NCBI GenBank assembly: GCA_947258755.1
Contig: CAMYJO010000016.1
Coordinates: 58,545-122,544 of the forward strand
Direction of reading: 5' to 3'
Length of the DNA: 64,000 nt
DNA from: an uncultured Gammaproteobacteria bacterium
GTDB lineage: Bacteria; Pseudomonadota; Gammaproteobacteria; JAADHQ01
Shown here: positions 20,732-64,000 of the stretch, in pieces
Numbering within the stretch: the first letter of the stretch is position 1
How the letters are laid out: every line of letters starts with the position of its first letter
The notes under the pieces: generated by a model
Database searches by the model: none
What the model was told of the DNA's origin: nothing
What the model saw: the letters and a program-made list of their open reading frames with translations, nothing else
Position numbers and translations under genes: made by a program

Positions 20732-20752
20732 ACACTGTTGATGCGTATCAAG

Positions 20753-50188: not shown

Positions 50189-50202
50189 TTGATCTGAATC
50201 AA
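50189..50202. promoter_or_regulatory. FNR-type operator (TTGAT-N4-ATCAA)
   Basis: TTGATCTGAATCAA matches the FNR consensus exactly, with both half-sites intact. It lies 118 bp before the cytochrome start codon. Candidate -10 sequences (TAAAAT at 50236-50241) lie downstream at roughly activating distance. Oxygen-responsive activation of the cytochrome operon is inferred. Confidence 0.7.
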
Positions 50203-50319
50203 TACTCGTAATCTGATAAATGTGTTCTAGTTACGTAAAATACCCGAATCCCGTAGTACCCGATGAATTTCCGCCAGGTGGACGCATCTGCTGCCGGTAA
50301 AATACGAAAGGGGAATAAA

Positions 50320-52725
50320 ATGAAAATAATCACTCTTCTTGCACTGTTACTGTTGTCTGCTTCATCCACCGCCATGGCTAAAATGGACACAGTTTCGAAA
50401 AAGCTTGCGGCCGAAAAGGGCTGTCTGGCATGTCATCAAGGCCTAGAGCCGATTCGGGAAGAAACCAGCGCGATGATGCTACAGATCAAGGGTGTCGGTA
50501 GTGGACATGGTGATGCGAATGGCTGTGTCGTCTGCCATGGTGGTAATCCCAAGGCAAACACCAAGAATGATGCGCATGCAGGCAGTCCCGAGAGCCTGAA
50601 GGCAGCCAAGGGTCCACAGGAATTTTATCGTGATCCGGGTAGTATATGGATTAACCAGTTCACCTGTGGTCAGGCCGGCTGTCACAAGGGTTATTCGGAG
50701 CGCGTGGAAAAATCCCTGATGAATACCGAGGCCGGCAAGATCCAGGGTAACCTGCATACCTGGGGCATCAAGGAAGTGTTTGATCACAAGGTGCCGTGGG
50801 GTAACTATGATGTGACAGATACCGATGGCGCCGTTCCAGACATCGGTACCAAGGAATACAAGGATTACATGGCGGCCATGATCAAGGCCCATCCGAAGCA
50901 GTTCCCGAAAGAATTGAAAATGGTGCCACAACCCACGGTCGAGGAAATCGAAAAGGATCCCAAGCTGGCGGGCATGACCTATCAGCGCCAGCAGTGCCAA
51001 CGTTGCCATGTCGGAGTGCGTGGGCGCGAGAAGCGTGGTGATTATCGTGGCATGGGTTGTTCCTCCTGTCACATCCCCTACAGCAACGATGCCTACTACG
51101 AAGGTGGCGATCCGACGATCGATAAAACCAAACAGGGACATATGATGCTACATAGCATCCAATCCAGCCGTAAAGCCAAGGTTAAGGGTCCAAATGGAAC
51201 CTATTCAGGTATCCCGGTTGAAACCTGTAACTCCTGCCATAACCGCGGCAAGCGTATTGGTGTGACCTATCAGGGCCTGATGGAATTCCCCTATGGCAGC
51301 CCGTTCAATGAGCAGGGCGAGAAACAGCCCAAACTGCATACCAAGAAATACCTGTTTATCTCCGATGACCTGCATCACCAGATCAAGAGCCGCGAAGGTA
51401 ATCCCAAAGGGGGCTTGTTGTGCCAGGACTGTCATACCACCATTGATATGCATGGTGACGGTAATATCTTTGGAACTACATTGGCGCAGGTGGAGATCGA
51501 ATGTGAAGACTGCCACGGCACGCCACGCAAATTCCCATGGGAATTGCCAATGGGTTATGGCGAGGAGTTCGGCAAGAAGATATCAAGCAAGCCGCGCGGC
51601 CTGGCCGATGCTGCATTGCCTGAAACATCAGGTTTCGCAACCCATTACGACAAGAAGGATGGCTATTTAAAAACTACACGTGGTAATCCCTTTGGTAATG
51701 TCGTTAAGGATGGCAAGAAAGTCATGCTGCATTCAGCTACAGGTAATGATTTTGAAGTGCCGGTACTCAAGCAGTTGGCTCTGGATGACAACTGGAAGAG
51801 CCCGAATGCCATGGTGGCGATGGACCGGGTAGAAAAACATTCGAAGAGTCTTGAATGTTATGCCTGTCATGCCTCCTGGGTACCACAATGCTATGGTTGT
51901 CATGTGAAAATGGACTACGGCAAGGACAAGAATGGTAAGCCCTATCAGGATATCGACTGGGTCGCTTCCGGTAACAAGCGTACATCGAATGGTGAAACAG
52001 CTGAATCCATCCTCGGTACAGGCGGCATCAAGAGCCCAGGTAAGGCGTTTGAAACCCGCTCTTACCTACGCTGGGAAGAGCCGGTTCTGGGTATCAACGG
52101 TGAAGGCCGCGTCACCCCACTGATGCCGGGTTGTCAGGTGATTTATACCGTGGTTGACCGTAAGGGCAAGACCATCGCGTTGAACCAGACAGGCCGGTCT
52201 ACAGACGAGGCGAAGCAATTAGGCCAGAAGCGAATCCCATTAGGTATCGATATGGCGCCGGTGCAACCACATTCAGCACAGCGCAAGGCGCGTACCTGTG
52301 AGAGTTGTCATAACAATCCGAAGGCCATGGGTTACGGTATCTCCGGAGGCGTATTTATGGCCCGTAGCACAGAAAATGTGATTGAGGACCTGATTGACCA
52401 GAAGACCGGTAAACCCATTCCGGGCCGTTACCAGATCCAGATCCCCAAGATTGACGGGTTGGATTTCGACTTGTCCACGATTGTCAACGATAAGGGCGAG
52501 CAGGTGGCTACAGTCGGTACACACTGGCCATTGTCCAGGTCCCTGACCAAGGAAATGCGCGATGGTATGAAGCGCACCGGTTTGTGTATGGGCTGTCACC
52601 GTGAAATGACCAATGAACAACTATGGGGCAAGGTGGCTCAACCTGGAACGTTGACAGATGAGCAGCACATTGAACTGATGAACAAGATGTTCAAGACTTA
52701 TGCTGGCAGTAAAGCAAAGAAATAG
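50320..52725 (+). CDS. 12-haem periplasmic c-type cytochrome
   Basis: An 801-aa precursor with a signal peptide (MKIITLLALLLLSASSTAMA); AGGGGAATAAA precedes ATG 50320, preferred to an earlier ATG at 50263. Eleven CXXCH motifs start near residues 35, 69, 226, 247, 303, 368, 395, 513, 524, 660 and 756, plus one CGQAGCH (CX4CH) near 116. No transmembrane helix, so periplasmic. The 524-660 gap could house a non-haem domain. It does not match octahaem nitrite, tetrathionate or sulfite (MccA, CX15CH) reductases in haem number. It leads an operon with a TPR lipoprotein, an exported protein and a porin, behind an FNR box. Function unknown; probably anaerobic electron transfer. Confidence 0.88.
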   Translation: MKIITLLALLLLSASSTAMAKMDTVSKKLAAEKGCLACHQGLEPIREETSAMMLQIKGVGSGHGDANGCVVCHGGNPKANTKNDAHAGSPESLKAAKGPQEFYRDPGSIWINQFTCGQAGCHKGYSERVEKSLMNTEAGKIQGNLHTWGIKEVFDHKVPWGNYDVTDTDGAVPDIGTKEYKDYMAAMIKAHPKQFPKELKMVPQPTVEEIEKDPKLAGMTYQRQQCQRCHVGVRGREKRGDYRGMGCSSCHIPYSNDAYYEGGDPTIDKTKQGHMMLHSIQSSRKAKVKGPNGTYSGIPVETCNSCHNRGKRIGVTYQGLMEFPYGSPFNEQGEKQPKLHTKKYLFISDDLHHQIKSREGNPKGGLLCQDCHTTIDMHGDGNIFGTTLAQVEIECEDCHGTPRKFPWELPMGYGEEFGKKISSKPRGLADAALPETSGFATHYDKKDGYLKTTRGNPFGNVVKDGKKVMLHSATGNDFEVPVLKQLALDDNWKSPNAMVAMDRVEKHSKSLECYACHASWVPQCYGCHVKMDYGKDKNGKPYQDIDWVASGNKRTSNGETAESILGTGGIKSPGKAFETRSYLRWEEPVLGINGEGRVTPLMPGCQVIYTVVDRKGKTIALNQTGRSTDEAKQLGQKRIPLGIDMAPVQPHSAQRKARTCESCHNNPKAMGYGISGGVFMARSTENVIEDLIDQKTGKPIPGRYQIQIPKIDGLDFDLSTIVNDKGEQVATVGTHWPLSRSLTKEMRDGMKRTGLCMGCHREMTNEQLWGKVAQPGTLTDEQHIELMNKMFKTYAGSKAKK

Positions 52726-52753
52726 ACACTGAAAAGCAGAAAAAAGGAAAAGT

Positions 52754-53539
52754 ATGCAAAGGTCAACATACTGGACACTGCTGTTCGTACTAGTGTCTAT
52801 GATCGGGATAGGAGCGTGCGATCGGGGTGATAAAGCTGCGGCGACAGTATCACCGGCAAGCACAGATGTCAGTAAGGTTAGTGCGGACGCCGCTGCCCCT
52901 GTCAAAAAGCGCACAGGCGCACATGGTGCCTACGATCCGCATGCCGCACTCACGCCGGACAAGCACATCCTGGTTGCGTTGCAACATCAGCAGGAGGGCA
53001 GGCCGCAACAGGCCTTTGATGTGCTGGACCAGGCAATCAAGCAATTTTCCAATAACGCCGAATTGCTTTCTGTGCGTGCCAGCCTGCTACTGGAGTCCGG
53101 CAAGGCCAGCATGGCATTGCAAGATCTGGAGGCAGCCATTGCTATTGAGCCGCATAATGCCTTGTTGCATGTTAATCGTGCCCAGGCCTATCGCAGCTTT
53201 GGTAGTATCGAGGAGGCATTGAAGGACCTTGATCAAGCACTGAAACTGCAGCCTGGTCTGGTGGCGGCACATTTCAATCGTGGCGCAATCCGTTACAGCA
53301 GTGGCGAATACGAGTCTGCATTGGCCGACTTCAATGCCTGTATTGAAGCTCAAGCTGATATTGCGGCACCCTATTTCAACCGCGCAGCAGTGTATGATGC
53401 GATGGATAAAAAACCGTTGGCTATCGCGGACCTGCAACGGTTTATCGAGTTGAGCGAAAGCGAGTCGTGGAAACAGACGGCACAAAAGCTGCTGGATGAA
53501 TGGCAAGGGAAGGCGAGTAAGGCGACCGATAAATCATGA
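52754..53539 (+). CDS. TPR-repeat lipoprotein
   Basis: A 261-aa lipoprotein: signal with lipobox GIGAC (Cys about residue 22), a low-complexity linker, a DPHAALTPDKHI segment, then about four to five tetratricopeptide repeats (HQQEGRPQQAFDVLDQAI, LESGKASMALQDLEAAI, YRSFGSIEEALKDLDQAL, YSSGEYESALADFNACI). It should be anchored in the outer or inner membrane facing the periplasm and act as a scaffold. It starts 28 bp after the cytochrome gene, suggesting that it assembles or docks that cytochrome. Confidence 0.82.
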   Translation: MQRSTYWTLLFVLVSMIGIGACDRGDKAAATVSPASTDVSKVSADAAAPVKKRTGAHGAYDPHAALTPDKHILVALQHQQEGRPQQAFDVLDQAIKQFSNNAELLSVRASLLLESGKASMALQDLEAAIAIEPHNALLHVNRAQAYRSFGSIEEALKDLDQALKLQPGLVAAHFNRGAIRYSSGEYESALADFNACIEAQADIAAPYFNRAAVYDAMDKKPLAIADLQRFIELSESESWKQTAQKLLDEWQGKASKATDKS

Positions 53540-53555
53540 GTAATTGGTTGAGTTG

Positions 53556-54137
53556 ATGGCGCGTTCATTCAAGTTAATTTTTGGATTTGTTTTTCTGCTT
53601 TGTTCGGTGCCGTTATGTGCGGCAAAAAATTCACTAGACTTCTCTGCGTTGTTACAGGAGTCGGGACTCAGCATGACGGAGATGCCCGGCTTCAATGAAA
53701 TATCACCCGCCAAGGATGACGTGTTGTCGTATGAATATGCGCTACGTCATGAGAATGAGTTAATGGAGATCCGCTATAGTATACGCCCGATCAAGCGCAT
53801 CAAGATTGACTATGAAGACCCGCATAATAATGCGCCCGAGCCGAACCATTTGTTTAATATGATGTTTGAGACAATCGTTGAGCAGTTATCAGATGGTGGT
53901 CATAGTCCCAGAAGGGAATACCCGACTGAGCAATCACAACAACGCTTCAATGCCGGCTGGGCCGCTGCCGCGGTGTTTGATGTGAATGAAAGCTATTCAA
54001 CAGACTATCGTCAGGCTTTGATGTTGACATTACACAAGAATAATCATGCCGATGCCTATATTGTTTTTTTATATAATGACTATGCCAAGGTAAAAGAGCT
54101 GATCAATGACAGTATGTCGGCATTACGTTTTAAATAA
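53556..54137 (+). CDS. exported protein of unknown function
   Basis: A 193-aa protein with a signal peptide (MARSFKLIFGFVFLLCSVPLCAA). The mature part has MPGFNEISPAKDDVLSYEYAL, EIRYSIRPIKRIKIDYEDPH and FNAGWAAAAVFDVN; I recognise no domain, though the layout suggests a small beta-rich periplasmic protein. ATG at 53556 is preferred to an upstream TTG at 53544 as it places the signal peptide at the N-terminus. It sits inside the cytochrome-porin operon. Confidence 0.65.
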   Translation: MARSFKLIFGFVFLLCSVPLCAAKNSLDFSALLQESGLSMTEMPGFNEISPAKDDVLSYEYALRHENELMEIRYSIRPIKRIKIDYEDPHNNAPEPNHLFNMMFETIVEQLSDGGHSPRREYPTEQSQQRFNAGWAAAAVFDVNESYSTDYRQALMLTLHKNNHADAYIVFLYNDYAKVKELINDSMSALRFK

Positions 54138-54168
54138 CTATTATTAAATAGAGAGGAAGGACTTTGCT

Positions 54169-55242
54169 ATGAATATCATTAATAACAAGTCTATTTTAAG
54201 CGTTGCCCTGATTGCATCAATGACGGCACCGGCAGGACTGGCGCAAGCTGCGATTAATCTGGACAAAGATGGCAATGTAAAATTGTATGGCGATTTTCGT
54301 CTGCGTGCTGAATATGATGATCGTACCACCTCGGCAGGTGTAAGCCAGGACCGTGACCGTTTCCGTTATCGCGCGCGCCTGGGTCTCAGTTATAAAGTGA
54401 ATGATCAATGGTCAGGCGTGGCGAGGTTGGCAACCGGTACTAGCGCACTGAATTCGCCGCATATCTCGTTTGGAACGACTGACAGTTCCAGTAATGCAGA
54501 CATCGGTTTCGACCAGGCCTATGTCGCTTATAAACCGCTGTCGAACCTGACTTTTCATGCCGGCAAGACGCCACTAAACTACTGGCAGTCGAGCGAGATG
54601 TTCTGGGACAAGGACATTAACCCGGATGCATTCGCCGTCGTATACCAAAATGGTCCGCTGACATTGAATGGTGCCTATGCGATGGTCACTGAAGATTCCT
54701 GGGGGGATGACACCGACGTGCTACTGTATCAGGCCGTCTATAAAGGCGAAATACAAGGCATGAAAGTGAAAGGAGCCATCGGTGGTGCGATGTTGGATGC
54801 GCCAGCAGGTACATTTCAGGCCGAGGACCATTATATGATCAATGGTGAGTTGCGCACAGGTCCCTGGCGCTTTGGACTGGAATACCTGAAGAGTGACGCC
54901 AATGATCATGATACCGCTTATGTGCTCGAAGGACGCTACAAGGTCAATAACAAGGTAGGCCTGCGTTTATATTATTTCGATGTTGAGGCGCATGCGCCAC
55001 TGGGTGATGGTACGTTTTCGCAGGATGACTTCCCCAATCCTGGTAGTACCGGCGTGTCAAACTTCGATGGTTTCCGCTTGCAGTTAGATTACAATATTGC
55101 CAAACGGGTCAATCTGGACCTGCGTTATTATGACATGGAAAGGATTGTTGATACCGCGACACTGGGTGCCAGTGCCAGTGATGCGCGCTTCAATGACCGT
55201 GACCGTTATCGTATACAGGCGAACCTGAATATTAAATTCTAA
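54169..55242 (+). CDS. outer-membrane porin (putative-porin / Porin_5-like)
   Basis: A 357-aa beta-barrel precursor. The signal peptide ends GLAQA; the barrel opens NVKLYGDFRLRAEYDDR and RFRYRARLGLSYKVND, contains FHAGKTPLNYW, and ends NIKF with the terminal Phe needed for BAM insertion. Alternating amphipathic strands suggest about 14-16. It is much shorter than MtrB-type cytochrome conduits, so a substrate pore is more likely than an electron conduit. It ends the operon, with a terminator 22 bp downstream. Confidence 0.8.
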   Translation: MNIINNKSILSVALIASMTAPAGLAQAAINLDKDGNVKLYGDFRLRAEYDDRTTSAGVSQDRDRFRYRARLGLSYKVNDQWSGVARLATGTSALNSPHISFGTTDSSSNADIGFDQAYVAYKPLSNLTFHAGKTPLNYWQSSEMFWDKDINPDAFAVVYQNGPLTLNGAYAMVTEDSWGDDTDVLLYQAVYKGEIQGMKVKGAIGGAMLDAPAGTFQAEDHYMINGELRTGPWRFGLEYLKSDANDHDTAYVLEGRYKVNNKVGLRLYYFDVEAHAPLGDGTFSQDDFPNPGSTGVSNFDGFRLQLDYNIAKRVNLDLRYYDMERIVDTATLGASASDARFNDRDRYRIQANLNIKF

Positions 55243-55263
55243 TAGTTATTTTTTGTAAATCAG

Positions 55264-55297
55264 GAAAGCCCTGTCCCTTTAATGGGCAGGGCTTTTT
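55264..55297 (+). terminator. Rho-independent terminator after the porin gene
   Basis: AAAGCCCTG(T)CCC-TTTAAT-GGGCAGGGCTTTTT: a long GC stem with one bulge and a T-run, closing the cytochrome-porin operon. Confidence 0.92.
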
Positions 55298-57815: not shown

Positions 57816-59072
57816 TCATGGAACCTGGCTTTGAATCTCAAGATTCAATTCAGCCTTACCCTTAACGTCAACCTCAGGCTGGTTACTAATCAGGTCACCA
57901 CTCTGTGTCATCGCATTGCCCGATTTTGAAACCCGCGCACTGACGACTACCTGGTCAAAATTAGATAGTTTCATTTGCGCCATCATCGCCATGCTGTCAT
58001 CCAATGTAAATTCAAATGGTAGATCCTTGACCTGTTTGCGTACGATCGCTAGTGGCATGCGTGGACCGCTGAGTGCACGCGCATAGACGAATACTGTATC
58101 TTCCGGACTGACTTTGTCCTTCATGCTGTCGGCCAGTGCGACGCGGCCGGTTATGCTGGCCTTGGTGTCTGACGCAACTGCTGATTTCGGTGTTGGTTCA
58201 GGCTCAGTTGGTTCTATACCCAGGCGTTTCTGCGCATCGGCAATACTGCCTCGGATCATCTCGGCGTCTTTGGAATCGACAGGTAATTCCTGTTGCAGGG
58301 TCTGCCAAAATCGGATGGCCTTGTCATATTGTTGTTGCTGGAAATGATAGGTGCCGGCCAGCCACAAGGCCTTGGGGTGTTTGGGTTCGATGGCCAGTGC
58401 GCGTTTGGCATATTCATAAGGCTTGCCTTCAAGGCTACCATTCTGGTTGACCGCCACAACGTCGGCATAATTGGCCCAGATATTGGCATCATTAGTGGCC
58501 AGTTGTGTCAGTTTTTGTAAGGCCTGTTCGGCCTTCTCAAATTGTTGCGTGTGCATATAGGCGCGTGATAGCAGGTACCAGCCTTTGGCATCTTCAGGTT
58601 CTTCCTGCAAGCGTTTTTCTAATTTGATAATCATTTCGCTAACACTGGGTGCATCGCCTGTGGTCTGTGCGCCTTCGTGAGGACTGCCGGCCAGGCGAGT
58701 GGCGGACGGCATATCAATTGTCTGTGGGCTGCCCAGGGTCAGGTATAGGGGGATGGCCAGCGCTGGGACCGTAAACAGTATGATGATCAGGCTGGCGCGG
58801 CTGCGAGTGCTATCAATTTTTTGCTGTGCTTGTTCAGGGATATCGAAAATCAGTTGTTTTTCAAGGTCCTGTTGAGCATCCTGGTATTCCTGTTGCTCGA
58901 TTTGTCCTTCAGCAAGATCGTTGTCGAGTTCGGCCATGCGTTGCTTATAGATGTCGAGGTTGACCTGTTTACGTTCAACCTGATTATCATGTTGCTTACT
59001 TACTAGCGGACGCACAAGCAGAATAATGGCGAACAGCAACATCAGTGCCGCGATGATAGAGAAACTAATCAT
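57816..59072 (-). CDS. ccmI: cytochrome c maturation protein CcmI
   Basis: A 418-aa inner-membrane protein: two N-terminal membrane helices (MISFSIIAALMLLFAIILLV; SLIIILFTVPALAIPLYL) around a cytoplasmic loop rich in DNDLAEGQIEQQEY, then periplasmic TPRs (GWYLLSRAYMHTQQFEKAEQ, LWLAGTYHFQQQQYDKAI). The C-terminal domain is beta-rich (FVYARALSGPRMPLAIVRK). It presents apocytochrome to CcmF/H. It is last in the leftward ccm operon and overlaps ccmH by 8 bp. Confidence 0.9.
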   Translation of the reverse strand: MISFSIIAALMLLFAIILLVRPLVSKQHDNQVERKQVNLDIYKQRMAELDNDLAEGQIEQQEYQDAQQDLEKQLIFDIPEQAQQKIDSTRSRASLIIILFTVPALAIPLYLTLGSPQTIDMPSATRLAGSPHEGAQTTGDAPSVSEMIIKLEKRLQEEPEDAKGWYLLSRAYMHTQQFEKAEQALQKLTQLATNDANIWANYADVVAVNQNGSLEGKPYEYAKRALAIEPKHPKALWLAGTYHFQQQQYDKAIRFWQTLQQELPVDSKDAEMIRGSIADAQKRLGIEPTEPEPTPKSAVASDTKASITGRVALADSMKDKVSPEDTVFVYARALSGPRMPLAIVRKQVKDLPFEFTLDDSMAMMAQMKLSNFDQVVVSARVSKSGNAMTQSGDLISNQPEVDVKGKAELNLEIQSQVP

Positions 59073-59544
59073 GGGTGTTTTCCTTGTGCTCTTCTTGCAG
59101 CATGGCTTTAATACGTTGGTGCTCGTGCTCGTCTATTTCGACTGTTGGGCTCTGTGTGCGTTTGCGAATATAGATAACCAGGAATATGATGCCGAGCCCC
59201 AGCATGATAAATGGTCCCGCGTATAACGGGTAGGTACTCTTTTTTACGGGTGGCCGGTAGAGGACGAAGTCGGTAAAGCGTTCGGACATGAAGTCCTTGA
59301 CCTGCTGCTCATTTTTACCTTCCTGTACCATCTTGTAGACCTTGTCGCGCAGATCTTTGGCGAGACTGGCATTGGAGTCTGCGATGGTCTGGTTTTGACA
59401 AACGGTGCATCGTAGTTCGTTGATCAGATAGTCGAAACGTTTTTGTTTTTCCGGGTCATCGAACTGATAGGTATTGAAGGCTGCCTGTGCATTGAAGGCA
59501 AACAGCGACAGCAGTAAAGTCCAGATGAGGGGCAAAGTTTTCAT
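59065..59544 (-). CDS. ccmH: cytochrome c maturation thiol reductase CcmH
   Basis: A 159-aa protein with a signal peptide, the LRCTVCQNQTIADSNASLA redox motif (LRCxxC, about residue 45), AKDLRDKVYKMVQEGK and a C-terminal membrane helix (FIMLGLGIIFLVIYI). It keeps apocytochrome haem-binding cysteines reduced. It starts within the ccmG stop region. Confidence 0.95.
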   Translation of the reverse strand: MKTLPLIWTLLLSLFAFNAQAAFNTYQFDDPEKQKRFDYLINELRCTVCQNQTIADSNASLAKDLRDKVYKMVQEGKNEQQVKDFMSERFTDFVLYRPPVKKSTYPLYAGPFIMLGLGIIFLVIYIRKRTQSPTVEIDEHEHQRIKAMLQEEHKENTHD

Positions 59545-60074
59545 GATTCCTGCTCCAGTTTGCGTATCATTGGCAGTATTTCATCGTTGATTACATCGCT
59601 TGTCACCGGGCCAATTTGTTTGTAGCGGATAATACCTTTTTTATCGACCAGGAAGGTCTCGGGAACGCCGTAGACGCCCCAGTCGATGCCAACGGTGCCG
59701 GATAGGTCAAAGGCGCTGTTAATGTATGGATTGCCGAAGGCCTGCAACCAGCGAATGGCATCATTTCGTTGGTCTTTGTAATTGAGACCAATGATCGGGG
59801 TCTGATGTTGTTTGGCAAACTCGACCAGTAAGGGATGCTCCTCACGACAGGCGACACACCAGGAGGCCCAGACATTAAACAGCGTTACTTTGCCGAGGAA
59901 GTCCTCGTGACTGACCCGTTGTTGCGGCTGCAACACGGCCGGTAAATTAAATGCCGGCGCCGGCTTGCCGATCAATGGTGATGGAATTTTCTTTGGGTCC
60001 CGAGTCAATCCAATGGCCAGCAGGATAACCAGGGCTATAAATGTCGCCAGGGGTATCAGTGCACGTAGTTTCAT
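59541..60074 (-). CDS. ccmG: periplasmic thiol:disulfide interchange protein CcmG/DsbE
   Basis: A 177-aa thioredoxin-fold protein anchored by an N-terminal helix. The active site NVWASWCVACREEHPLL is preceded by GKPAPAFNLP and followed by the GVYGVPETFLVDKKG cis-Pro loop. It reduces apocytochrome c via CcmH. CVAC in place of the more usual CPTC/CVPC is a mild variation. Confidence 0.93.
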   Translation of the reverse strand: MKLRALIPLATFIALVILLAIGLTRDPKKIPSPLIGKPAPAFNLPAVLQPQQRVSHEDFLGKVTLFNVWASWCVACREEHPLLVEFAKQHQTPIIGLNYKDQRNDAIRWLQAFGNPYINSAFDLSGTVGIDWGVYGVPETFLVDKKGIIRYKQIGPVTSDVINDEILPMIRKLEQES

Positions 60075-62032
60075 GCCGATTGCTCCGCCCTATTCTGTTT
60101 GTTGTTACGCTTCAGGCGATAGCGTTTGTCACTCAGTGCGAGCACGCCGCCGATAGCCATGATCAGCGAGCCAAGCCATATCCAGCGAATCAGGGGTTTG
60201 TACTGCATGCGCACACTCCATTCACCATTTCCGAGCGGTTCACCGAGGGCGACAAACAGATCGCGCATCAGGCCAGCATCGATTGCGGCCTCGGTCATCG
60301 GACTACGCTGCACGAGGTACAGGCGCTTTTGCGGCTTCAGTTCGGTATAGGGCTGATCATTACGGCTGACACTAATATCGCCTTCCTGGGCGCGGTAGTT
60401 AGGGCCGTTGACATCTTTGACGCCGTTGAAGCGGAAGTCGTAACCGCCCAGGTTCAGGCTGTCACCGGGTTTCATGCGAATATCTTTTTCAATACTGTAA
60501 CTGCTGGTGAAGGTCACACCCAATGCGAATACGGCCACGCCGATATGGGCGAGGAACATACCATAGAAGCTACGTGGTACCCGTACTAATGCTACCAATT
60601 TGTTGGGCTTGTTTTGCACGTGTTTATACAAATTCAGGAAAGCGCTGCTGACCATCCAGGAAAATAGTGCAATCATCATTGCCACCGGCCATGAGATGTC
60701 ACCGAGAATGTAGTAAGCGCTAATGCCAACCACTATAGACAGGACGAAAATGATCTTCAGGTCATTGGCCAGGCGTGACAGTTTGTGTTGTTTCCAGCGC
60801 GCCATTGGGCCGATCGCAGACAGGAACAGGATCGGTAACATTAACGGAACAAACACGGTCTGGAAATAAGGTGGGCCGACCGATAACTTTTCGTTTAAGA
60901 AGGCATCGATGGCCAGCGGGTATAAGGTGCCAAACAATACCGTTGCGCATGCGACCACAAAAATGACATTGTTGATCAACAGCAATGTTTCACGCGATAA
61001 CAGGCTGAACTTGCCGACACTGTGGATGCTGCCGGCACGCAGCGCATACAATAACAGTGAACCGCCGACGACGATACCGAGAAAGATCAGGATGAATACG
61101 CCACGGGCCGGGTCGGTGGCGAAGGCGTGTACGGAGGTCAATACCCCGGAGCGCACCAGGAAGGTACCGAGCAGGCTCAGTGAAAAGGCCAGTATCGCCA
61201 ACATCACGGTCCAGCTTTTAAACGCACCGCGTTTTTCCGTGACCGCCAGTGAATGAATCAGGGCCGTGCCGACCAACCAGGGCATGAACGACGCATTTTC
61301 GACCGGATCCCAGAACCACCAGCCACCCCAGCCGAGTTCATAATAGGCCCACCAGCTGCCAAGGGCGATACCAACAGTCAGGAAGGCCCAGGCCATCGTC
61401 GTCCACGGTCTGGACCAGCGCGCCCAGGCGCTATCCAACTGGCCACCAAGCAATGCCGCAATCGCAAATGCAAACGCAACTGAGAAACCGACATAACCCA
61501 TGTACAGCATGGGTGGATGGATGATCAGGCCAAAGTCCTGCAATAACGGATTCAGGTCGCGGCCTTCAGCCGCTGCCGGGATCAGGCGTTCGAACGGATT
61601 CGACGTTAGCAGCGTGAACAGCAGGAAGCCGATGCTGACCAGTCCCATGACGCCGAGTACGCGCGCGAGCATGGCCTGCGGTAGATGGCGGCTGAAGATA
61701 GTGACGGCCAGTGTCCAGGTGCCGAGAATCAGCACCCATAACAATAGTGAACCTTCATGTGAACCCCACACGGCCGAGATGCGGTATTGCAGCGGAAGTA
61801 ATGAGTTGGAATTGTGTGCAACATAGGCGACCGAGAAATCATTGACAATAAATGCGTAGGTCAGGCACAGATACGAGATCAGCAGGAACAGAAACTGACC
61901 GCGCGCGGCTGGCCGGGCCATGGCCATCCAGCGGGTCTTGCCCGATGCTGCACCGGCGATCGGAAAAAAGGCCTGGAAGATGGCCATGCACAGCGCCAGG
62001 ATAAGGGCAAATTGACCGAGTTCAGCTACCAT
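60071..62032 (-). CDS. ccmF: haem lyase subunit CcmF
   Basis: A 653-aa, about 15-helix membrane protein. The tryptophan-rich WWD signature is visible as WGGWWFWDPVENASFMPWL, with conserved periplasmic His residues (IIHPPMLYMGYVG). With CcmH and CcmI it forms the lyase that joins haem to CXXCH. The unusual CX4CH haem site of the 12-haem cytochrome would have to be served by this or another lyase; no second lyase is in the window. It overlaps ccmE and ccmG by a few bases. Confidence 0.96.
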   Translation of the reverse strand: MVAELGQFALILALCMAIFQAFFPIAGAASGKTRWMAMARPAARGQFLFLLISYLCLTYAFIVNDFSVAYVAHNSNSLLPLQYRISAVWGSHEGSLLLWVLILGTWTLAVTIFSRHLPQAMLARVLGVMGLVSIGFLLFTLLTSNPFERLIPAAAEGRDLNPLLQDFGLIIHPPMLYMGYVGFSVAFAFAIAALLGGQLDSAWARWSRPWTTMAWAFLTVGIALGSWWAYYELGWGGWWFWDPVENASFMPWLVGTALIHSLAVTEKRGAFKSWTVMLAILAFSLSLLGTFLVRSGVLTSVHAFATDPARGVFILIFLGIVVGGSLLLYALRAGSIHSVGKFSLLSRETLLLINNVIFVVACATVLFGTLYPLAIDAFLNEKLSVGPPYFQTVFVPLMLPILFLSAIGPMARWKQHKLSRLANDLKIIFVLSIVVGISAYYILGDISWPVAMMIALFSWMVSSAFLNLYKHVQNKPNKLVALVRVPRSFYGMFLAHIGVAVFALGVTFTSSYSIEKDIRMKPGDSLNLGGYDFRFNGVKDVNGPNYRAQEGDISVSRNDQPYTELKPQKRLYLVQRSPMTEAAIDAGLMRDLFVALGEPLGNGEWSVRMQYKPLIRWIWLGSLIMAIGGVLALSDKRYRLKRNNKQNRAEQSA

Positions 62033-62478
62033 CAGTATTTAGCCTTTTCTGTCTTGTCGACACCTTTCGGCTTCATTGCTGCAGCCACTTCCGGCGGCAT
62101 GTAGTTTTCATCATGTTTGGCCAGTACTTCGTCGGCGATGAATACGCCATCTGCAGCCAGCTTGCCCTGGGCGACGATGCCCTGTCCTTCACGGAACAGG
62201 TCCGGCAGGATGCCCGTGTAGGCGATAGTGACTTCTTTGGCATTATCATGCACAACAAAACGTACGGTCAGGCCGTCGCGGTTGACACTGTTGTCCTTGA
62301 CCATGCCGCCAACGCGGAATGAACGGTTCAGCGGTGCCTCACCGGCTGCAACCTGGCTCGGTGAAAAGAAAAACATCAGGTTTTTATTAAAGGCAGTCAG
62401 CGCCAGGGCAGCGGCAGCTCCCACACCGAGCACGATCAGTGCTACCATCATCAATCTGCGTTTACGCGTAGGGGTCAT
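62032..62478 (-). CDS. ccmE: haem chaperone CcmE
   Basis: A 148-aa periplasmic OB-fold protein with an N-terminal anchor helix. The haem-binding region reads [13 protein letters not shown], the HxxxY motif with the covalent-haem His. [11 protein letters not shown] and [19 protein letters not shown] are conserved. It receives haem from CcmC and hands it to CcmF. Confidence 0.95.
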
Positions 62479-62642
62479 GTGCGTTGTCCTCGTCTTTTCT
62501 TTCTACCAAGTTGTTTCAATAATTGTTTTTTGCGTTTCATTGGGCCATTGACCAAGGCCAGCATGACGACGATGGCGAGGCCAAACGATAGCCAGACATA
62601 CAGGTAGTAGCCATCCATATCCAAAAAATCTAACAGTGTCAT
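62475..62642 (-). CDS. ccmD: small membrane protein CcmD
   Basis: A 55-aa protein with one membrane helix ([18 protein letters not shown]) and a very basic C-terminus ([19 protein letters not shown]). ATG at 62642 overlaps the ccmC stop (ATGA) and is preferred over an upstream start at 62669 lying inside ccmC. It helps release holo-CcmE. Confidence 0.9.
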
Positions 62643-63379
62643 AGGCGCTCTCTCTCTTCCTGTACCCACTTTGTGTGAGACTCTCTTTCCAGAATTTCGT
62701 TCCGACTGCGCATCAGTAAAACCGTCGCAAAATAAAACTTGAAGGCCGTTGCCATAATCATCAGTGGGATCAGCATGCTTTTATCCATGGCCTGCTTGTC
62801 TTGCATGACCTGTACTGTCGGCCCCTGATGTAGCGTGAACCACCATTCTACCGAATAATGAATAATCGGAATGTTAACCACACCCACAATCGCCAGGATC
62901 GCGGTTGCGCGTGCAGCGGTGCGTTTATCTTCAAATGCGGATTGCAGCGCCATATAACCGAGATACAGGAATAACAGCACCAGTTCTGATGTTAAACGCG
63001 CATCCCATTCCCACCAGGTGCCCCACATCGGTTTGCCCCAAAGTGAGCCGGTCGCCAGAGCCAGGAAGGTGAAGGCAGCGCCGATCGGTGCGCAACTATT
63101 GGCGACAACCTCGGAGGCCTTGGTTTTCCAGATTAATGATGCAGCCGCCGATACGGCCATGACCATATAGACAAACAACGACATCCACGCCGCTGGTACA
63201 TGAACAAAGATAATGCGATAGCTGTCCTTCTGTTGATAGTCGGCTGGCGCCTCAACCAGTCCCCAGTACAGACCGACTAGCATCAGGATCAATGTCGGCC
63301 ATGCGAACCAGGGTAATAATTTTCCGCAGAAGAAATAAAAATTCCTTAATGAGGCCAGTTTGGTGATTGTTTGTAACAT
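62639..63379 (-). CDS. ccmC: haem exporter/handling protein CcmC
   Basis: A 246-aa protein of six membrane helices. The WWD motif is WGKPMWGTWWEWDARLTSELVL, with flanking periplasmic His residues (FVHVPAAWMS; HYSVEWWFTLHQGPT). It loads haem onto CcmE. The start is four bases after the ccmB stop. Confidence 0.96.
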   Translation of the reverse strand: MLQTITKLASLRNFYFFCGKLLPWFAWPTLILMLVGLYWGLVEAPADYQQKDSYRIIFVHVPAAWMSLFVYMVMAVSAAASLIWKTKASEVVANSCAPIGAAFTFLALATGSLWGKPMWGTWWEWDARLTSELVLLFLYLGYMALQSAFEDKRTAARATAILAIVGVVNIPIIHYSVEWWFTLHQGPTVQVMQDKQAMDKSMLIPLMIMATAFKFYFATVLLMRSRNEILERESHTKWVQEERERL

Positions 63380-63382
63380 GTC

Positions 63383-64000
63383 TTATCCTATACTCGCGCG
63401 CAAGGCCGCCGCTGTCGCCAGCGGTGCCAGGGTTAAGGCCAGGGCCAGCAATGCTGCGATTAGCATCAGGTGACCACTGATATCCAGGCCGACAGTCGAG
63501 GCGGCCACGGCATTGGCGCCGAAAATCAATACCGGTACATAAAGCGGTAATACCAACAGCGAGATCAACATACTGCCACGTTTCAGTCCCACTGTCAGGG
63601 CGCTACCGATGGCACCGACCAGACTCAATACCGGTGTACCAAGCAGTAAAGTCTGCATCAGGATCAACGTGGCGTCGAAATCCAGATGGAAGAATGTGGC
63701 CAGTAAGGGTGATAACAGGATCAGCGGCAATCCGGTCAGCAGCCAGTGTACAGCAATCTTGCCCAGTACCAGCATCCCGAACGGGTATGGTGACAAGGTC
63801 AGTTGTTCAAGACTGCCATCCTCATAATCGGCGCGGAACATCGTGTCCAGTGACAATAGTGCGGCCAGCAATGCCACTACCCAGATAATGCCCGGTGCAA
63901 TTTGTTTCAGGATGACGGTATCCGGGCCGATGCCGAGCGGGAATAGCACCGCCGCAAATACAAAAAACAATAACGGGTTCAACCATTCGGATTTGTTTCT
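63383..64000 (-). CDS. ccmB: haem exporter permease CcmB, N-terminus cut by the window edge
   Basis: About 206 residues are visible and the frame is open at the right edge (RNKSEWLNPLLFFVF), so the first 15 or so residues and ccmA lie outside. Six membrane helices and LPLYVPVLIFG, TLSPYPFGMLVLGK are typical of CcmB, the permease partner of the CcmA ATPase. A TTG at 63982 could be mistaken for its start, but the family pattern continues beyond it. Confidence 0.93.
   Translation of the reverse strand, partial: RNKSEWLNPLLFFVFAAVLFPLGIGPDTVILKQIAPGIIWVVALLAALLSLDTMFRADYEDGSLEQLTLSPYPFGMLVLGKIAVHWLLTGLPLILLSPLLATFFHLDFDATLILMQTLLLGTPVLSLVGAIGSALTVGLKRGSMLISLLVLPLYVPVLIFGANAVAASTVGLDISGHLMLIAALLALALTLAPLATAAALRASIG

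Follow-up and report, generated by a model that had tools for sequence, protein, structure and literature searches.

Two kinds of described system are among the closest to the locus reported here. In Geobacter, ExtM of the extHIJKLMNOPQS cluster has been described as a 12-haem cytochrome (PMC5877670), and in the sir and nrf systems the reductases SirA and NrfA stand beside SirEFG and NrfEFG, which supply a dedicated or linked CcmF-CcmH-type lyase and a TPR-type chaperone, SirG in the sir case (PMC6976685). We analysed a 64,000-nucleotide stretch of DNA from an uncultured Gammaproteobacteria bacterium (contig CAMYJO010000016.1; hereafter the window, to whose positions all unlabelled coordinates refer), which carries at 50189-55297 a plus-strand operon for a periplasmic dodecahaem c-type cytochrome, a TPR protein, an exported protein and a porin. 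The cytochrome belongs to an apparently undescribed, widespread variant of periplasmic multihaem respiratory cytochrome with a consistent genetic setting. We tentatively read the system, at somewhat less than an even chance, as a periplasmic multihaem reductase (or electron hub) under FNR control with assembly factors.

The cytochrome gene spans 50320..52725; its open reading frame opens at 50263, and the ATG at 50320 is the likelier start, judging by the signal peptide and the homologues. All 24 haem cysteines in the motif listing of the window protein fall within 11 CxxCH motifs and one CX4CH motif (CGQAGCH, haem site 3, 50665..50685), and one lone Cys remains. The 12 sites align across 73 homologues. 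Most Gammaproteobacteria and a few other homologues have CX4CH at site 3, and the remaining homologues, which are the majority, have CX2CH there, so the 12-haem count, read from the sequence alone in an earlier note on this DNA, is real and conserved. That note had also set the count apart from that of the named octahaem reductases; this difference stands, but Geobacter ExtM, also with 12 haems, is a precedent.

ExtM (NF040943) is the best NCBIfam match of the window cytochrome (206.8 bits, E = 4.8e-61), far below the family cut-off of 800, and four relatives reach 237-324 bits, also below it. The two proteins are alike in having 12 haems, similarity over most of the protein and a porin gene nearby; they differ in length (about 820 versus about 600 residues, the window protein being the longer) and in setting, as the window locus has none of the ExtN/KL/O/P/Q/S genes and has an FNR box and ccm linkage instead. 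Its neighbours (the TPR gene, the orphan exported protein gene, the porin gene, soeABC and ccm) do not make up an ext-like cluster. Judged by these scores, the family is related to ExtM yet lies outside ExtM as curated; no close characterised homologue was found. Two loci from Thermodesulfobacteria (L088:5265-8594 and L090:3346-6678) have a porin-like gene directly 5' of an ExtM-like 12-haem cytochrome (324 bits to ExtM), and these cytochromes are intermediate between ExtM and the window family. With SirA/MccA plus SirEFG and NrfA plus NrfEFG, the window operon shares a multihaem cytochrome, here of probable anaerobic use, and a TPR gene adjoining the cytochrome gene, whereas SirA/MccA has 8 haems and NrfA has 5, and no sequence relation to either was found. 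A survey of the literature on 12-haem and ccmF-linked multihaem cytochromes, in which subscription papers were mostly uncovered, turned up no description of the family beyond ExtM.

Outside the haem motifs, ten His residues are conserved (105, 297, 359, 371, 397, 490, 526, 670, 754 and 802), and Met153, Met340, Met520 and Cys624 are other candidate ligands. With ten such His residues as candidate distal ligands, two or more of the 12 haems must lack a conserved distal His. The block at residues 590-634 (RSYLRWEEP...PGCQ; 52030..52164) contains no haem site and is conserved to the same degree as the haem motifs (mean column conservation 0.86), and its lone Cys624 is present in 41 of 41 aligned sequences and in 72 of the 73 of a wider set. 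This conservation makes the block around Cys624 the leading candidate substrate site or source of an unusual haem ligand. Sequence searches of the PDB, with the single protein and with a 41-row profile, returned chance or single-haem matches only. A Foldseek search with a haem-free model of the cytochrome (predicted local distance difference test, pLDDT, 81; predicted template modelling score, pTM, 0.82; little secondary structure) found nothing below E = 0.6, which weakly suggests a new fold.

The operon is preceded by a perfect FNR/ANR-type box, TTGATCTGAATCAA (50189..50202, plus strand), a type that DNR/FixK-type regulators also recognise. It is one of two perfect FNR-type boxes in the 64 kb, where seven boxes with at most one mismatch were observed against 3.63 expected, so the box alone is weak evidence. 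Among homologues, a box with at most one mismatch lies 5' of the first haem codon at 34 of 74 loci (12 of them perfect), compared with 3.7% of controls, which were random 460-base windows drawn from the same loci; the loci are related and not independent, so a p value for this difference is a guide only. The conservation, unlike the single box, is strong evidence; chance as the origin of the window box was dropped, and the earlier proposal of FNR-type control gains support. In Gammaproteobacteria with the TPR and exported-protein genes, which have no adjacent regulator gene, the box is found at 8 of 13 loci. The operon is thus probably oxygen-regulated in the FNR manner, as far as sequence can indicate, with box-to-promoter spacing in the window showing no clear class II arrangement. 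The second perfect box, TTGATGCGTATCAA (20738-20751), lies just beyond the 3' end of a minus-strand GGDEF response-regulator gene and has no listed gene of at least 200 amino acids behind it.

Comparison of loci revealed three types. In the first, the cytochrome gene is accompanied by those for the TPR and exported proteins; this type occurs in Gammaproteobacteria and Thermaceae, and one Chloroflexi locus has the TPR gene only. In the second, mostly in Alphaproteobacteria, the partner is a small exported Rap1a-domain protein (PF18602, 58 bits). The third, in more distant lineages, has neither companion set. The linkage of cytochrome, TPR and exported-protein genes recurs in 15 other loci, and all four genes stand in identical order in one of them (L011), which bears out the linked gene unit proposed earlier. 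Of 39 informative Rap1a-type loci, 32 have a gene for a CRP/FNR-family protein with cysteines near the N terminus, mostly divergent from the cytochrome gene. These divergent regulators (L033:8934-9737 and similar loci) have an N-terminal CX2CX4C-like Cys group with a spacing unlike that of E. coli FNR.

Cytochrome c maturation (ccm) genes accompany the cytochrome gene at 8 of 9 informative loci of the first type and 33 of 39 of the second, together 41 of 48. In the window, ccmI, H, G, F, E, C and B (57816..63982, minus strand) are the convergent neighbour of the operon, with a few small genes between them and its 3' end. Of the context signals this linkage is the strongest; it was missed by the earlier note, and so was the kinship with ExtM. 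Of seven alphaproteobacterial genomes tested, six encode two or three CcmF copies; against the L033 query, identity is 69-75% for the linked copies and 51-56% for the others. The exception (L082) has one CcmF copy, unlinked to the cytochrome, both Thermaceae genomes have one copy, and L012, a gammaproteobacterial relative, has one plus a marginal fragment. The copy counts therefore demonstrate an extra linked haem lyase for Alphaproteobacteria only.

Specificity to the cytochrome was seen among its companions. The orphan exported protein (53556..54137, with an open reading frame from TTG 53544, plus strand) has no family in Pfam, NCBIfam or PHROGs. It was found in 4 of 56 gammaproteobacterial genomes, all of them cytochrome-bearing (4/6 versus 0/50, p = 4e-5), and in none of the alphaproteobacterial genomes tested. 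In Foldseek searches with its predicted model (pLDDT 85), PsbP/CyanoP folds ranked first, closely followed by Mog1; the best match has E = 1.6e-5 and probability 1.00, and template modelling scores are 0.37-0.57 for matches below E = 0.001. The likeness is in predicted fold; identities are 8-13%, no family model is common to them and the setting is different. A protein with this predicted fold would more likely serve in assembly or as an accessory than in redox chemistry. The TPR protein (52754..53539, plus strand; Pfam TPR_1 9.7e-22) has a lipobox-like signal, whose Cys occurs in some relatives and is lacking in others, and is probably an apocytochrome chaperone or assembly factor. The Rap1a-domain protein is a constant cytochrome partner in Alphaproteobacteria (L033:12386-12787 and about 46 other loci); its family, named for type VI secretion system immunity, may have a wider accessory role.

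A scan of 84,980 GTDB species genomes gave 101 relatives, of which 80 were kept. Identity is mostly 71-89% in Gammaproteobacteria (57-62% in some), 55-62% in Alphaproteobacteria and 59-66% in Thermaceae and relatives; further hosts belong to Chloroflexi, Campylobacterota, Hydrogenothermaceae, Aureispira, Planctomycetota and Thermodesulfobacteria (33%). The distribution is sporadic, as within one alphaproteobacterial family the cytochrome was found in 7 of 219 genomes (two more matches were short and weak). In the tree, the window clusters with L011 and L012, and three Thermaceae rows stand beside the gammaproteobacterial TPR/exported type, a placement that fits transfer of the cassette between phyla, although many source genomes are metagenome-assembled and single bins may be contaminated. 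A tblastn search of plasmids gave only partial 27% matches, in Sphingobium. The system is widespread, built alike across hosts and probably oxygen-controlled, and several of its hosts (Roseibium aggregatum, Tropicimonas, Aliiruegeria, Shimia abyssi and Rhodobium orientis) are named isolates in which gene deletion is feasible.

These results are consistent with the following model. When oxygen is absent, an FNR-family regulator would switch on a soluble periplasmic dodecahaem cytochrome, to which the Ccm system would attach 12 haems, many Alphaproteobacteria probably using an extra linked CcmF-CcmH-CcmI set. The TPR and PsbP/Mog1-like exported proteins would act as assembly or stabilising factors, with the Rap1a-like protein replacing both in Alphaproteobacteria. 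The mature cytochrome would receive quinol-pool electrons via other carriers and would act as a terminal reductase, the Cys624 block being the likeliest site at which a small acceptor in the periplasm is reduced; in loci that have a porin, solute would enter through it. The model draws on the 12 conserved haem sites, the conserved box, the CRP/FNR genes, the ccm linkage with its extra linked CcmF, the layout shared with SirA/SirEFG and NrfA/NrfEFG, the confinement of the exported protein to cytochrome-bearing genomes together with its accessory-type fold, the invariant non-haem block with Cys624, and the haems without a conserved distal His. It also draws on locus L035, where genes for a tetrahaem cytochrome, a DsrO-like ferredoxin protein (just under its cut-off) and DsrP (over its cut-off) directly precede the cytochrome gene (L035:2-5134). 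This arrangement points to a possible quinol-linked version of the system, with the quinol pool as ultimate electron donor in at least one lineage. The haem count, the conservation of the box, the gene linkage, the specificity of companions and the invariant residues are observations; the roles in maturation, the reductase activity and the direction of electron flow are inferred. The periplasmic electron-transfer role under anaerobic control put forward in the earlier note is supported, and its interpretation as a whole held in part.

Several observations weigh against this model. The window cytochrome has neither the CXXCK of NrfA-type catalytic sites, sought among its Cys contexts, nor the CX12-15CH of SirA/MccA-type sites, and sequence conservation of the block is no proof of catalysis. 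The window operon encodes no quinol dehydrogenase. The extra lyase, a feature of the Sir and Nrf systems, is limited here to Alphaproteobacteria, the window genome having one Ccm set with a single CcmF copy, and ccm genes were found at none of the four distant loci of the third type. The more far-reaching proposal of a new class of anaerobic terminal reductase, dodecahaem, with an invariant-Cys active site, present in several phyla, with its own linked CcmFHI in many Alphaproteobacteria and an acceptor outside the assigned enzyme families, we consider possible but rather unlikely. Why some multihaem cytochromes bring their own haem lyase is a question to which the ccm linkage adds a new case.

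The most serious alternative is a periplasmic electron wire or capacitor: the cytochrome would carry or hold electrons passing between quinol dehydrogenases and other reductases, and would itself be non-catalytic. Twelve haems, mostly with conserved His ligands, would suit such a protein, many large multihaem proteins are carriers, the distribution is sporadic, and the gene context of L035 is as compatible with feeding a carrier as with feeding an enzyme. However, the most conserved non-haem block, with its lone Cys, Arg, Trp and Glu, goes beyond the needs of a wire, and the specific assembly companions and extra lyase resemble reductase operons. We consider a wire rather unlikely, though a real prospect.

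A component of a selenite or tellurite (metalloid oxyanion) reductase, as proposed for the Geobacter ext cluster, is improbable. ExtM is the best named match, and a porin gene adjoins the cytochrome gene here, as a porin-like gene does at the two thermodesulfobacterial loci and as with ExtI; but the ExtM score falls short of its cut-off and the other ext genes are missing. Moreover, the Geobacter phenotype was shown for ExtI only and not for ExtM (PMC5877670), and the effects of extHIJKL extend to the reduction of Fe(III) and Mn(IV) (PMC6148476).

Similarly small is the probability that the cytochrome is a partner in sulfur metabolism, such as an electron carrier for SoeABC or a polythionate or sulfite enzyme. 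The earlier note had taken a hint of sulfur chemistry from the divergent soeABC genes, which are indeed divergent in the window and in L069; many hosts are sulfur oxidisers, SoxB is encoded in the window genome, and DsrO/DsrP-like genes occur in L035. The adjacency, however, is confined to the genus of the window, the genes being about 8 kb away in L012 and unseen in other loci, and SoxB was absent from the Thermaceae hosts searched. No soe linkage was seen outside a few Gammaproteobacteria, and soeABC was dropped as the key to the system. Neither SoxB (26/31 versus 26/37, p = 0.25) nor NosZ (17/31 versus 16/37, p = 0.47) was significantly associated with the cytochrome, in tests that are rough because positives came from several alphaproteobacterial families and negatives from one.

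A porin-cytochrome conduit for extracellular electron transfer, the outer-membrane option of the earlier note, is very improbable. It would be favoured by the porin gene that the operon has in the window and at L011, and by the weak resemblance (41.5 bits) of the cytochrome to the MtrC/MtrF domain II/IV model. Against it, the OmcA/MtrC decahaem model TIGR03507 scores 28.1 bits with a cut-off of 209.3, the operon encodes no surface lipoprotein cytochrome, the 357-residue porin matches general porins and is missing from most loci, and MtrB/PioB (PF11854) occurs in only 2 of 33 cytochrome-bearing genomes, that of the window not being one of them. The porin was dropped as a conduit sheath.

The porin itself (Porin_5/Porin_4 by Pfam; 54169..55242, plus strand) is by the locus comparison an optional member, not a core part as the four-gene unit of the earlier note implied. 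A porin gene is near the cytochrome gene in five loci only, in the same order once (L011) and otherwise upstream and divergent. The remaining architecture described in that note was confirmed, namely the perfect box, the tight packing of the four plus-strand genes (28, about 16 and 31 bp apart) and the strong intrinsic terminator (~55263..55297, plus strand), whose hairpin has one bulged base, a stability of -22.8 kcal/mol (z = -3.6, with none of 200 shuffles equally stable) and a T run behind it. Elsewhere, a contig with a 12-haem cassette also carries, truncated where the contig stops, a gene for an eight-CxxCH cytochrome with a weak hydrazine-dehydrogenase-like match (L014:1-1246).

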